From Burkholderia metallica (GTDB lineage Bacteria; Pseudomonadota; Gammaproteobacteria; Burkholderiales; Burkholderiaceae), in the NCBI RefSeq assembly GCF_902832845.1, contig NZ_CADFDB010000008.1, positions 310,001 to 374,000 on the forward strand: 64,000 bases of DNA. The letters run 5' to 3'. The notes beneath the pieces are model-generated. The model had not been told where the DNA came from and did not search any database. It saw only the letters and a list, made by a program, of their open reading frames with translations. The translations under genes and the position numbers were made by a program. This document shows positions 46,946 through 52,740 of the stretch, one piece after another. Numbering within the stretch: position 1 is the first letter of the stretch; every line of letters starts with the position of its first letter.

Positions 46946-48232
46946 ATGCGACGCGCAGTCCGCAACATTCAGCGCAGCAGGGGAATCGACTTGAATCGTC
47001 AGCAATCGTGGACGCGTACGGCGGCGCCCGGGGAAATCATTTACTCCGAGGGTTTTGCGGGCGAGCCCGTCATCTTTCTGATCGCCGACGGCAAGGTCGA
47101 GCTGTCCACGCGATGCGACGACAAGCGCGTGATCGTCGCGACGCTCGGCCGCGGCGAGTTCTTCGGCGAATCGGCATTGCTCGCGGCCGAACCGCGTGCC
47201 CATACCGCGAAGGCGCTTTCATTCTGTCAGCTGACGGTCGTGCCGGCCGGCATGCTCGACGAGGAAATCGAGCGCGTGTCGGCGCTGCTGCGCCACATCG
47301 TGCGAACGATGATCCGCCGCGTCAAGCGCAAGGACGACCAGCTCGCCACCTACACGCATGCCGACTTCATGCCGGGCGTGCTGTCGTATGCGCATGTGCT
47401 GGCGCTGATGGCGGGCGCCGAAGCGCGCGACGGCGGCGACGCGTGGGTGCGCCGGCCGATGCAGGCCCATGCGGCCGAAACCTCGGTGCCGCTTGCCGAA
47501 GTGATCCGCAAATGCCGCGCGATTGCCGGCCATTCGCGCCCGCACGTGCTCGCGATGCTGCGACGCATGGAGAAGCTCAACCTCGTCACGATCGAAGCGG
47601 CGCAGGCGGACCATGCGGGCGGGGCAGTCGACTATGCGGCTTCGTCGGATGCGCGCCAGGTCGTCACGTTCGACGCCGCGCGCGTGATCGATCGCGCGCA
47701 GCAGGTGGCCGATCACGATCTCGATCTGTCGATCAACAGCGAGCTCGAACTCATCGAACTGGCCGATCTCGAATCGCTGATCGGCGTCGAGAGGACGATG
47801 CTGCTCAACAAGCTGTCGAACGGCGAGATTGCCGACGAAGTGTTCGCGTTCCGCAAATCGAAGGTGCTCAGCTACGTCGAGCAAAAGGGCGTTGCGTACT
47901 TCTCGCGACGCAACGCGCGTCGCGCAGAGGTGCGCTCGCTGGAGGATCTCGTGTCGATCGACCAGCGCACGCTGTTCGACGTCATCGGCACATTCGACAC
48001 CTACGATCTCGCGAAGCTCATCGCGAATCTCGACGATCGCGCGGTGGCCGACAAGCTGTTCTCCGTGATGACCGAGGCGCGGCGCAACGAGGTGTCGTGG
48101 GTGATGCGCCGCGAGCTCAAGCTCGATCCGGTTGAGATCGAGGACATCGAGCGGCGCGTGCTGGATGCCGTTCGCGCGGCGAAGGCGCCGGCGGCAGGCA
48201 CTGCGCCTGTCGCGTCGGCATCGGATGCATGA
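46946..48232 (+). CDS. Fusion of cyclic-nucleotide-binding (Crp-like) domain and FliG-C-like domain
   Basis: 428 aa. Residues about 20-135 are a cNMP-binding jelly roll (TAAPGEIIYSEGFAGEPVIFLIADGKVELS, LGRGEFFGESALL). A helical middle follows, including a winged-helix-like patch near 175-215. The C-terminus (VRSLEDLVSIDQRTLFDVIGTFDTYDLAKLIANLDDRAVADKLFSVMTEARRNEVSWVMRRELKLDPVEIEDIERRVLDAVR) aligns along its length with the motor domain of flagellar rotor protein FliG (EDL, DxR, E.x.D.., LREDLE..GP pattern). ATG 46946 has no ribosome binding site; a TTG at 46991 after AGGGGAATCGAC is an alternative. MotA/MotB-like genes follow immediately, so the two parts may respond to the stator. Confidence 0.75.
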   Translation: MRRAVRNIQRSRGIDLNRQQSWTRTAAPGEIIYSEGFAGEPVIFLIADGKVELSTRCDDKRVIVATLGRGEFFGESALLAAEPRAHTAKALSFCQLTVVPAGMLDEEIERVSALLRHIVRTMIRRVKRKDDQLATYTHADFMPGVLSYAHVLALMAGAEARDGGDAWVRRPMQAHAAETSVPLAEVIRKCRAIAGHSRPHVLAMLRRMEKLNLVTIEAAQADHAGGAVDYAASSDARQVVTFDAARVIDRAQQVADHDLDLSINSELELIELADLESLIGVERTMLLNKLSNGEIADEVFAFRKSKVLSYVEQKGVAYFSRRNARRAEVRSLEDLVSIDQRTLFDVIGTFDTYDLAKLIANLDDRAVADKLFSVMTEARRNEVSWVMRRELKLDPVEIEDIERRVLDAVRAAKAPAAGTAPVASASDA

Positions 48233-48245
48233 CGAGGAGGCGCGT

Positions 48246-49010
48246 ATGGATCTGTTGACCCTGGCCGGTGTGGTGCTGGGCGGCGCCGCGATCGTGTTCG
48301 GTTTCGCGCTGGAAGGCGGGCACTTCTCGATGCTGTTCCAGTTCGAGGCGCTCGTGATCGTGCTTGGCGGCACGCTCGGCGCGGTGATGATCCAGAACAC
48401 CTGGGCGCGCTTCTTCGACGCGGTGAAACAGCTGCGGCTCGCGTTCGTCCGTGCGCGCGAGGTCGATCGCAAGAACCTGTCCGACCTGCTCGAATGGGGC
48501 GACCGCGCGAAGCTCGACGGGCTGCTCGCGTTCGAATCGATGGACGTGAGCGGTATTCATCCGTTCGCGCGCCGCGGGCTCGAACTGCTGGCCAACGGCG
48601 TGTCGACCGCCGTGCTCGAAGATGCGTTGCAGCGCGAACTCGATGCGTACGAACGCAGCCGCCTCGCTGCCGCGCGCGTGTGGCAGCAGGCCGGCGGGTA
48701 TGCGCCGACGTTCGGCATTCTCGGGTCGGTGCTCGGGCTCGTGCAGGTGACGAGCCACATTCTCGAACCGGCGCAGCTCGGGCCAGGCATCGCGGTTGCG
48801 TTCATCGCGACGCTGTACGGGCTGGCGTTCGCTAACCTCGTGTTCCTGCCGCTTTACGGCAAGCTGCGCGCGCAGATCGACAGCGAATTGCGGTTTCGCA
48901 AGCTGTATCTCGACGGCTTGCTGGCAATATCGCGCAAGGAATCGCCGCATACGATCGAAACGCGGTTGACCGGTGACGTGCGCGGGCGTGCGGTCGAATC
49001 GCTCGCGTGA
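48246..49010 (+). CDS. MotA-like stator protein
   Basis: 254 aa preceded by GAGGAGG. Four membrane helices: LTLAGVVLGGAAIVFGFALEGG, FEALVIVLGGTLGAVMI, GYAPTFGILGSVLGLVQV, GIAVAFIATLYGLAFANLVFLPLYGKL. The conserved prolines of the ion pathway (YAP and FLP) are present. Starts 13 bases after the FliG-like gene stop, so translationally linked. Stators of this family let protons or sodium drive rotation of a ring. It is shorter than E. coli MotA (295 aa) and closer to MotA/PomA-type secondary stators. No other flagellar gene occurs in the window. Confidence 0.87.
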   Translation: MDLLTLAGVVLGGAAIVFGFALEGGHFSMLFQFEALVIVLGGTLGAVMIQNTWARFFDAVKQLRLAFVRAREVDRKNLSDLLEWGDRAKLDGLLAFESMDVSGIHPFARRGLELLANGVSTAVLEDALQRELDAYERSRLAAARVWQQAGGYAPTFGILGSVLGLVQVTSHILEPAQLGPGIAVAFIATLYGLAFANLVFLPLYGKLRAQIDSELRFRKLYLDGLLAISRKESPHTIETRLTGDVRGRAVESLA

Positions 49011-50744: not shown

Positions 50745-50877
50745 ACAGCCCGAATGCCGCCGGTGCTGAGATATAACGAATCTCGCATGATGAACATCTG
50801 AAATCAGCGATGCGGTTCTGCGCGCGCATGCCGATAACCCAAACTGGCTCAGACCGAGCGGCTATCGAGGGTTCCCC

Positions 50878-52740
50878 ATGCATTTCTGGCGCAAGCTTTC
50901 CATTCAGAACAAGCTGATTCTCAGCATGACGAGTTGCCTGCTCGTGTTCGTCGCGATCTCGAGCGGGCTCAGCATCCGCCTGATCGGCAACGCGGTGCGC
51001 GATCGCGTCGTGCGCGAAGAGCTGCCGACGGCCGTGAACGGCATCCGCGCCGACGTGCAGCGGCAGATGGCCGGGCCGATCGCCGCGTCGCGGATTCTCG
51101 CGCGCGATGCATTCCTGCTGCAATGGGAAGCCGACGGCGAACCGGACGCCGGCACGCGCAACTGGATCCAGCTCGCGAAGAACGTGAAGGACGAGCAGAA
51201 GGCCGCGTCGGTGCAGTGGGTGTCGGTGAAGAGCGGCAACTACTACAACGAAGCCGGTCTGCAGCGGAAGGTGACCGACAAGGATCAGTGGCTGACCGGC
51301 TTCCTGTCGTCCGGCAAGGCGTTCGACGTGAACATGGACCGCGAGGTGACGGTCGGCGGCTACATGATGTTCATCAACAGCCGCGTCGAACTCGACGGCG
51401 TGCCGATCGGCGCGGCGTGCATGAGCTTGTCGGTCGATGCGCTCGCGAAGGGCATCGCCGCTTACCGGATCGGCGAGACCGGCTTCGCGTATCTCGTGCG
51501 TCCCGACGGCGCGATCATGATGCATCGCGATTCGTCGCTGATCGACGGCAAGCATTTCATGAAGGACCAGCAGGGGCTGCCCGGCGATGCGTCGTCGACG
51601 CTGCTGGCCGGCAAGCCGTATGCGTACCTGAGCTACAACGGTGAAGGCGGCGCGCGTTTCATCGCGACGTCGTTCATTCCGGAGTTGAACGCATATGTGG
51701 TCGTCGAGGTGCCGCAGGTCGAACTCCTCGGACCGGTGACGCGTGCGATCCGCAGTGCTGCGCTGGTCGCGGCGGTGGTGGGGCTGGGTGTCGCGTTGCT
51801 CGTGATCTGGCAGGTGGGGCGTGCGATCGCCGCGCCGATCCGACGGGCGGCGACGCTGCTGTCGGAGATCGCAAGCGGTCAGGGCGATCTCACGCGCCGG
51901 ATGACGGTCGAGAGCCAGGACGAGATCGGGCAATTGTCGGATGCGTTCAACCGGTTCGTGTCGTCGCTGTCGACGCTGGTGCATAGCATTCGGGCGGCTT
52001 CTGCATCGATCGCGACCGGGTCGGCGCAGATTGCGACCGGCAATGCCGACCTCAGCGAACGTACCGAAGGGCAGTCGAGCAACCTGGAGCGCACGGCTTC
52101 ATCGATGGAACAAATCACGGCCGTGGTGCGGAACAACACCGAGACGGCGACGACGGCCGCGAAGATGATCAACGGCGCTTCCGATGCGGCGGCGCGCGGT
52201 GGGCAGGTGGTGGGCGAGGTGGTGAGCACGATGCAGGAGATCAGCGACGCGTCGCAGCGGATCTCCGAGATCATCGTGATGATCGACAGCATCTCGTTCC
52301 AGACGAATATTCTTGCGTTGAACGCGGCGGTGGAAGCGGCGCGGGCCGGGGAGCAGGGGCGCGGGTTTGCGGTGGTGGCTTCGGAAGTGCGGAATCTGGC
52401 GCAGCGCAGCGCGCAGGCGGCGAAGGAGATCAAATCGCTGATCGAACATAGCGCGGGGACGGTGAATACCGGGTCGCGGCTGGTGAGTGAGGCCGGGAAG
52501 GTGATGCGCGATGTCGTGACGCAAGTGCAGGGCGTGAGCGCGATGATGAGCGAGATTGCCGAGGCGAGCCTGGAGCAGAGTGCGGGTATCGATCAGATCG
52601 GGGATGCGGTGCAGTCGCTCGATCAGATGACGCAGCAGAATGCGGCTTTGGTCGAGGAAAGTGCGGCGGCTGCGGAGAGTTTGAAGCAGCAGGCGGCGGA
52701 ATTGACGCGGCTGGTGTCGGCTTTCAAGGTGGATGAGTAA
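50878..52740 (+). CDS. Methyl-accepting chemotaxis protein with periplasmic dCache sensor
   Basis: 620 aa. Short cytosolic tail, membrane helix near 12-33 ([21 protein letters not shown]), a periplasmic dCache sensor to about 290 ([39 protein letters not shown], [21 protein letters not shown]), second helix near 297-317, HAMP, then a long coiled-coil signalling domain with the conserved tip [48 protein letters not shown]. No C-terminal NWETF tether, so adaptation enzymes would bind otherwise. Could be the sensory input of the FliG/MotAB-like cluster or a regular chemoreceptor that lies here by chance. Confidence 0.9.

Follow-up and report, generated by a model that had tools for sequence, protein, structure and literature searches.

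A 64,000-nucleotide stretch of the Burkholderia metallica genome (here called the window; C8:310001-374000 of a 7.55 Mb genome in 37 contigs) encodes a protein in which a cyclic-nucleotide-binding domain is fused to what is best described as a FliG-type armadillo domain, nearest the C-terminal domain of the flagellar rotor protein FliG (FliG-C). Genes for a MotA-like and a MotB-like stator subunit follow it consecutively on the plus strand, after gaps of 13 and 39 bases, and the conserved unit is this trio of fusion, MotA and MotB. We propose, at a probability of roughly 0.42, that the trio is a stator equipped with its own cyclic-nucleotide-responsive rotor mimic, which would dock on MotA and gate or park the channel, and that it would serve the flagellum as an auxiliary stator. 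The proposal builds on the domain make-up of the three proteins, a conserved channel and peptidoglycan-anchor domain, descent of the MotA beside flagellar MotC, and inheritance of the three genes as a unit.

The fusion is present in 29 of 37 genomes of its own genus (the window genome included) and in 58 of 249 genomes of the family sample. In that sample it was found in 26 of 31 own-genus genomes, 18 of 29 genomes of genus g44, 10 of 11 FliG-bearing genomes of genus g49 and all three FliG-bearing genomes of genus g37, with one divergent fusion in genus g34; at a guess, g44 would be Paraburkholderia and g49 Caballeronia. When 300 order-level and 398 phylum-level genomes, samples that contained few close relatives, were searched by profile, only two fusions came up, both from the own genus. 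All eight plasmid-collection records with a fusion come from Burkholderia (four), Paraburkholderia (two) or Caballeronia (two), and the DNA of the trio matched four named records of that collection, all of Burkholderia, at 82-91% identity.

All three genes stand together in 54 of the 55 loci read, which span the own genus and three others. These loci represent one per genome from the 71 fusion-bearing genomes of the genus and family samples, the other 16 genomes lying outside the count; 19 loci were excluded, 17 as second copies and two (L001, L032) as lacking the fusion. Two of the loci with all three genes (L022, L059) were shortened by our rule for open reading frames (ORFs) and are left out of the list of gaps, which covers 52 loci. 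The exception is the divergent fusion of Burkholderia sp. Leaf177 (G106), which has no adjoining MotA or MotB. All eight own-genus genomes without the fusion also lack a MotC-type MotA, and the 11 genomes without an ordinary fusion (these eight, G1012, G1025 and G106; completeness 86% for G1012 and 94% for G014 and G028) gave no MotC-type homologue with the window MotA as query, the best match having 28% identity and E 5.6e-9. Co-inheritance of fusion and stator is close to strict. An earlier reading of this DNA from its letters alone (the original prediction) had made conservation of the trio in related genomes its own test, and these loci bear it out; the ORFs and gaps that it listed are as it gave them, its MotA-like and MotB-like gene products have strong Pfam matches, and the cyclic-nucleotide domain and FliG-C likeness that it assigned to the two ends of the fusion are recovered as well (Table 1).

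In hmmscan, the C-terminus of the window fusion aligns to positions 18-100 of the 108 of FliG_C (PF01706) with E 1.3e-4; its 22.6 bits fall just short of the curated cut-off of 23.3. In a six-frame search the fusion scores 25.7 bits, above that cut-off. FliG_C is the commonest match of this region, recorded at E up to 1 in 21 of the 23 fusions of the family (best 2.8e-6), and MgtE_N matches it in one. The seven families reported for the 23 fusions at this threshold include neither FliG_N nor FliG_M, both of which are present in the genome's own FliG. Against a broad FliG-C profile built from 16 FliG proteins (one row, L166, is odd at its C-terminus and was retained), the window C-terminus scores 11.0 bits, which one of 10,600 shuffles reaches (shuffle maximum 11.4). 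The median of 53 fusions, excluding the shortened L022 and L059, is 9.6 bits, equalled by three of 10,600 shuffles, and the weakest fusion scores 2.3. Comparison of the fusion family with the same FliG-C set by hhalign gave an alignment of 85 columns with a score of 33.2 and a pairwise E of 3e-4. With a narrow profile of 12 Burkholderiaceae FliG proteins, the window score is equalled or exceeded by 2.6% of 10,600 shuffles and the family median by 4.6%; a profile comparison with five close FliG proteins gave a probability of 0.7% and an alignment to residues 98-154, in or near FliG-M. The top PDB match of the C-terminus is a FliG-C chain, 1qc7, but at E 0.34. An AbiEi match (residues 294-374, E 0.0015) overlaps the helical region of the FliG_C match and was taken as chance. 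As far as these profiles can tell, the FliG-C resemblance is more than chance. The fusion is like FliG in this commonest family match; it differs in giving no match to the other two FliG domains, in the charges of its torque helix and in being joined to a cyclic-nucleotide domain.

At the other end of the fusion, PF00027 matches all 23 members (E up to 1). Within the phosphate-binding cassette, G74 and E75 are conserved in 23 of 23 fusions and R84 in 22, and when the domain is aligned with CRP of E. coli, E75 and R84 coincide with the GE of CRP and with the Arg ten residues later, residues that bind the ribose and the cyclic phosphate. Because these pocket residues are conserved, control of the fusion by a nucleotide seems reasonable. 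In the PDB, the domain is matched best by PKA/PKG-type proteins and by the EAL enzyme Bd1971.

The domain is followed, in CRP-like order, by a helix-turn-helix (HTH)-like stretch, GHSRPHVMAML, and residues 183-215 weakly resemble the recognition part of a winged HTH. At E up to 1, three of the 23 members have a MarR_2 match here, the only PDB match is MntR (E 0.41), and in the comparison with CRP 11 of 5000 CRP shuffles score as high as CRP itself. The fusion shares with the CRP/FNR family its conserved cassette Glu and Arg and the HTH-like stretch behind them; it differs from that family in an HTH that is degenerate or unproven and in the extra FliG-C-like domain. This order underlies the main rival to our proposal, in which the fusion would be a stator-tethered CRP-family transcription regulator with a working HTH: a MotAB-like complex would grip its FliG-C-like domain and release it upon a change in proton flow, load or cyclic nucleotide, and the output would be gene expression, not torque. 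The long stem and altered rotor face of the trio MotA, described below, would suit such a regulator, as would the position of the trio, which in the window and the inspected loci is set apart from flagellar structural genes. The HTH itself argues against it: HTH_Crp matches none of the seven fusion members scanned (E up to 5), and in the alignment with CRP the Arg is the only recognition residue retained; so does the breakage of the trio in the sole genome that carries it without FliG and FliM. We consider this rival rather unlikely.

Turning to the stator, the window MotA scores 250.5 bits against NF006583 (cut-off 237), presumably the model of MotC-type flagellar motor proteins, and PDB chains of flagellar MotA align with positions 1-245 of the MotA family profile (best E 2.2e-56). 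The MotB has a plug and transmembrane (TM) region and an OmpA domain (PF13677, PF00691); its best NCBIfam match is MotD (NF006541), at 167.1 bits short of the cut-off of 283. Asp32 is conserved in all 12 trio MotBs, and the channel prolines P154 and P202, also conserved in MotC, are invariant in the 12 trio MotAs. A tree of 29 rows (27 different) unites these 12 MotAs in a single clade (98/100) whose stem is 1.8 changes per column long. Its neighbours are the MotC-type proteins of other Burkholderiales families; the five ordinary MotA rows, among them the window genome's own flagellar MotA, lie far away. The MotC-type gene of two of the three loci from other families lies beside genes for a sigma-70-family factor, an SRP54-type GTPase and FlhA (FHIPEP), neighbours that read as fliA, flhF and flhA; the third locus has a ParA-like gene some 4 kb away.

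The channel helices are better conserved than the loop. When the 12 trio MotAs are compared with 10 MotC proteins, the density of positions identical in both is 0.52 in TM3-4 and 0.14 in the cytoplasmic loop. At residue 89 all 12 trio MotAs have Lys and all 10 MotC proteins Arg; at residue 90 all 12 have Leu, and the 10 have Arg or Lys. Residue 125 is Glu in 11 of the 12 trio MotAs and Arg in every MotC; Glu97 is kept in 11 of 12 and 10 of 10, respectively. A paper on stator evolution has R90 and E98 of E. coli MotA contacting D288-D289 and R281 of FliG (PMC12505986), and by their spacing residues 89 and 97 of the trio MotA would correspond to R90 and E98. Judged by tree and alignment, the trio MotA descends beside flagellar MotC, with its channel conserved and its rotor-facing loop altered.

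The closest known system is the MotCD stator of the Pseudomonas type (NF006583 / NF006541), with which the trio shares a full-length MotC-like A subunit over the cut-off, a MotD-like B subunit, the channel and an OmpA-type anchor. It differs in being encoded with the fusion, away from flagellar structural genes in the inspected loci, in the long-stem clade and changed rotor-facing residues of its MotA, and in a MotB below the MotD cut-off. The trio might nevertheless be an ordinary MotCD auxiliary stator with a CRP-type operon regulator as neighbour, the C-terminus of which would be a generic armadillo oligomerisation module that makes no contact with the stator. A MotA above the flagellar NCBIfam cut-off, whose family profile can be aligned over nearly its whole length with chains of flagellar MotA, fits such a stator, and the matches of the C-terminus to FliG-M and, in one of 23 members, to MgtE_N fit such a module. 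Against this stand the predominance of FliG_C among the C-terminal matches (21 of 23), the nearly strict co-inheritance with the stator and the divergence of the MotA rotor face from flagellar MotC, and we regard the idea as unlikely.

MotAB-like pairs also occur in machines unrelated to flagella, and the trio MotB does match ZorB models (best E 4.6e-22), which speaks for an ExbBD/TolQR-like envelope energiser or a Zorya-like defence machine. The A subunit points elsewhere: it has no PADLOC match, scores 18.4 bits against TolQ as compared with 250.5 against the MotC-type model, and groups with MotC in a tree that holds no ExbB, TolQ or ZorA rows. It is the MotC-type character of this subunit, together with the absence of ZorA, ZorC and ZorD matches among the five scanned proteins, that separates the trio from Zorya ZorAB; as only the MotB of the five matches a Zor model, Zorya-type defence is ranked low. 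The viral contigs and phages searched hold no relatives of the fusion, which is weak evidence in the same direction, and PHROGs gave no match. An energiser or defence role is very unlikely.

The window genome has flagellar genes and an ordinary stator: Pfam matches place FliE, FliF, FliG and FliK on other contigs and flhC-motA-motB-cheY-cheA-cheW on another. Canonical FliG is present in 57 of the 58 fusion genomes. The exception, G283, lacks FliG and FliM, and its trio genes lie together but broken (L099, C2:398000-416000, about 8325-11169), with the fusion split over two frames, MotB in three pieces in three frames and MotA whole; this reads as a trio decaying in a genome whose flagellum is gone. 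In genus g44, FliG_C was found in 141 of 144 genomes, and none of the three FliG-less genomes has an intact trio: in one it is broken, and two have neither the fusion nor a MotC-type MotA. Among the FliG-bearing g44 genomes of the family sample, 17 of 28 have the fusion. A further possibility is a stator freed from the flagellum, with a private rotor domain that sits on a CRP-type regulator. The rotor mimic would read proton flow or mechanical load on the cell wall and, together with a cyclic nucleotide, convert it into gene expression. Such a mechano-electrical sensor strikes us as improbable.

We return to the proposal of a stator with its own rotor mimic. The three genes would form a module in which a MotCD-type proton-channel stator is paired with a cytoplasmic cyclic-nucleotide-binding protein of its own. 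The fusion would dock, through its FliG-C-like domain, on the cytoplasmic loop of its MotA, and cyclic-nucleotide binding at the N-terminus would alter this docking. In one state the stator would be parked or held shut, and in the other it would be released, conduct protons and work. The cell's flagellum would be the likeliest client, for which the trio would act as auxiliary stator in motility on surfaces or under high load. Also in favour of this proposal count the altered rotor-facing loop of the trio MotA, the conserved cyclic-nucleotide cassette, the presence of canonical FliG in nearly all fusion genomes and the chemoreceptors beside the trio in several lineages. We infer the docking, the ligand, the ion, the direction of gating and the flagellar client.

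Several points weigh against this proposal. The FliG-C similarity is borderline in the single window sequence, and FliG-M is a close second: its hhalign score against the fusion family is 28.8, near the 33.2 of FliG-C, and its profile gives the window C-terminus 6.6 bits, a score as high being reached by 0.13% of shuffles. Because FliG-M also scores 28.8, the safe wording for the C-terminus is the one used at the outset. In the aligned torque helix of the fusion, Ala replaces the conserved Arg of FliG and the first of two acidic positions is occupied by Arg, and a comparison of net charges between fusion and MotA found no clear rotor-stator complementarity. The loop of flagellar stators may vary more than the channel for any reason. 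None of 28 upstream sequences has a sigma-28 motif by two patterns drawn from the consensus. The flagellum-less cases agree with a flagellar client, but they are three genomes only, too few to decide; and because flagella are nearly universal in the group, the co-occurrence of fusion and flagellum says little.

The start of the fusion may lie further downstream than annotated in Table 1. In an alignment of upstream regions, GCAGCAGGGG is followed by TTG (GTG in one sequence) at window positions 46976-46993, and GCAGCAGGGG occurs in 13 of 14 own-genus sequences. Because this conserved element precedes it, the in-frame TTG at 46991 may be the true start rather than the ATG at 46946.

Table 1. 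Features of the fusion-stator locus, in window coordinates.
Feature	Position	Strand	Basis or remark
Fusion protein: cyclic-nucleotide-binding domain, HTH-like middle, FliG-C-like C-terminus	46946..48232	+	428 aa from ATG 46946
Cyclic-nucleotide-binding domain, residues 24-109	47015..47272	+	PF00027, E 3e-17
Phosphate-binding cassette, G74-E75...P83-R84	about 47165-47209	+	residue conservation, 23 members
Winged HTH-like stretch (weak), residues 183-215	47492..47590	+	MarR_2, MntR, CRP alignment
FliG-C-like armadillo domain, residues 329-412	47930..48181	+	PF01706, broad FliG-C profile, hhalign (85 columns)
MotA/MotC-type stator A subunit, 254 aa	48246..49010	+	PF01618 (E 1.1e-24), PF20560, NF006583, tree
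MotB/MotD-type stator B subunit, 224 aa, with Asp32 (49143-49145) and OmpA-type domain	49050..49724	+	PF13677, PF00691
Membrane protein, 323 aa, accessory insert outside the conserved unit	49773..50744	+	no Pfam match
Methyl-accepting chemotaxis protein, adjoining the trio in part of the genus only	50878..52740	+	MCPsignal, E 4.5e-51

Downstream of the trio, the window holds a membrane protein and a chemoreceptor. The membrane protein is present in 2 of the 13 own-genus loci compared, its gene has a GC content of 0.567 as against 0.645-0.658 for the fusion, motA, motB and chemoreceptor genes, and it is about 60% identical in two related loci that possess copies; it has the look of an optional insert. 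The chemoreceptor follows MotB in 8 of the 13 loci, six times directly and twice behind the membrane protein. Other chemoreceptors immediately follow the trio in L069 and immediately precede it in Paraburkholderia sp. PGU19; their recurrence in several lineages, on different sides, is a lead only. The original prediction had included both proteins in a stator-coupled cyclic-nucleotide device, set apart from any flagellum. Its core, a fusion of FliG-C-like and cyclic-nucleotide domains with a stator of its own in a conserved trio, survives; the two additional members fall away with these counts, and the missing flagellum is true of the cluster only, given the flagellar and chemotaxis genes elsewhere in the genome.

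Some further observations concern the surroundings of the trio. The L069 chemoreceptor resembles that of the window only over its later part, and the chemoreceptor at L156 4910-6709 is known from annotation. A DUF6678 protein (E 7.6e-35) is encoded at 53767-54204 of the window, downstream of the chemoreceptor. Among eleven inspected loci, of which ten are from other genera, the flanks vary from genus to genus; the four g49 loci have a common upstream gene, and own-genus loci often carry a GST gene upstream. On plasmid PPGU19_p3 of strain PGU19, the genes of the trio carry the annotations cyclic nucleotide-binding domain protein, flagellar motor protein and OmpA family protein. In L066, 1021 bases separate MotA and MotB, and this gap contains a 322-aa ORF with a secreted-protein-like start by eye. 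The divergent Leaf177 fusion (L063 8429-9583 / L077 9001-10152) is about 31% identical and misses a mid-armadillo stretch, and upstream of it lies what by eye is a sigma-54-type regulator-like protein; a contig search with this fusion returned its own record and one protein that matches only its first half.

A functional parallel is offered by YcgR/FlgZ, which are PilZ c-di-GMP proteins. They are soluble nucleotide-binding proteins that act on a MotA-type stator, as proposed here for the fusion; the fusion differs from them in carrying a cyclic-nucleotide domain of the type described above and a rotor-like domain. All uses of FliG-C known to us are in the flagellar rotor. Among the matches listed for the open-licence literature, titles and abstract openings hold no description of a gene set that joins such a fusion to a stator. 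The stator-evolution paper cited above defines FIT and GIT classes and contains neither 'burkholder' nor 'cyclic' (PMC12505986). Burkholderia terrae BS001 is reported to have three motA/motB pairs and no MotCD homologue (PMC5462819); one of these pairs may be the trio stator.

If the proposal is true, a FliG-C-like domain placed on a cyclic-nucleotide sensor and inherited in several genera with a stator of its own would show how stators come to be recruited to new partners, and cyclic-nucleotide signalling would be coupled directly to a proton-driven motor. The fusion would then also provide a small soluble stator ligand for structural study of rotor-stator contacts. Together, the three genes suggest that these bacteria may possess a dedicated chemical control handle for a molecular motor.

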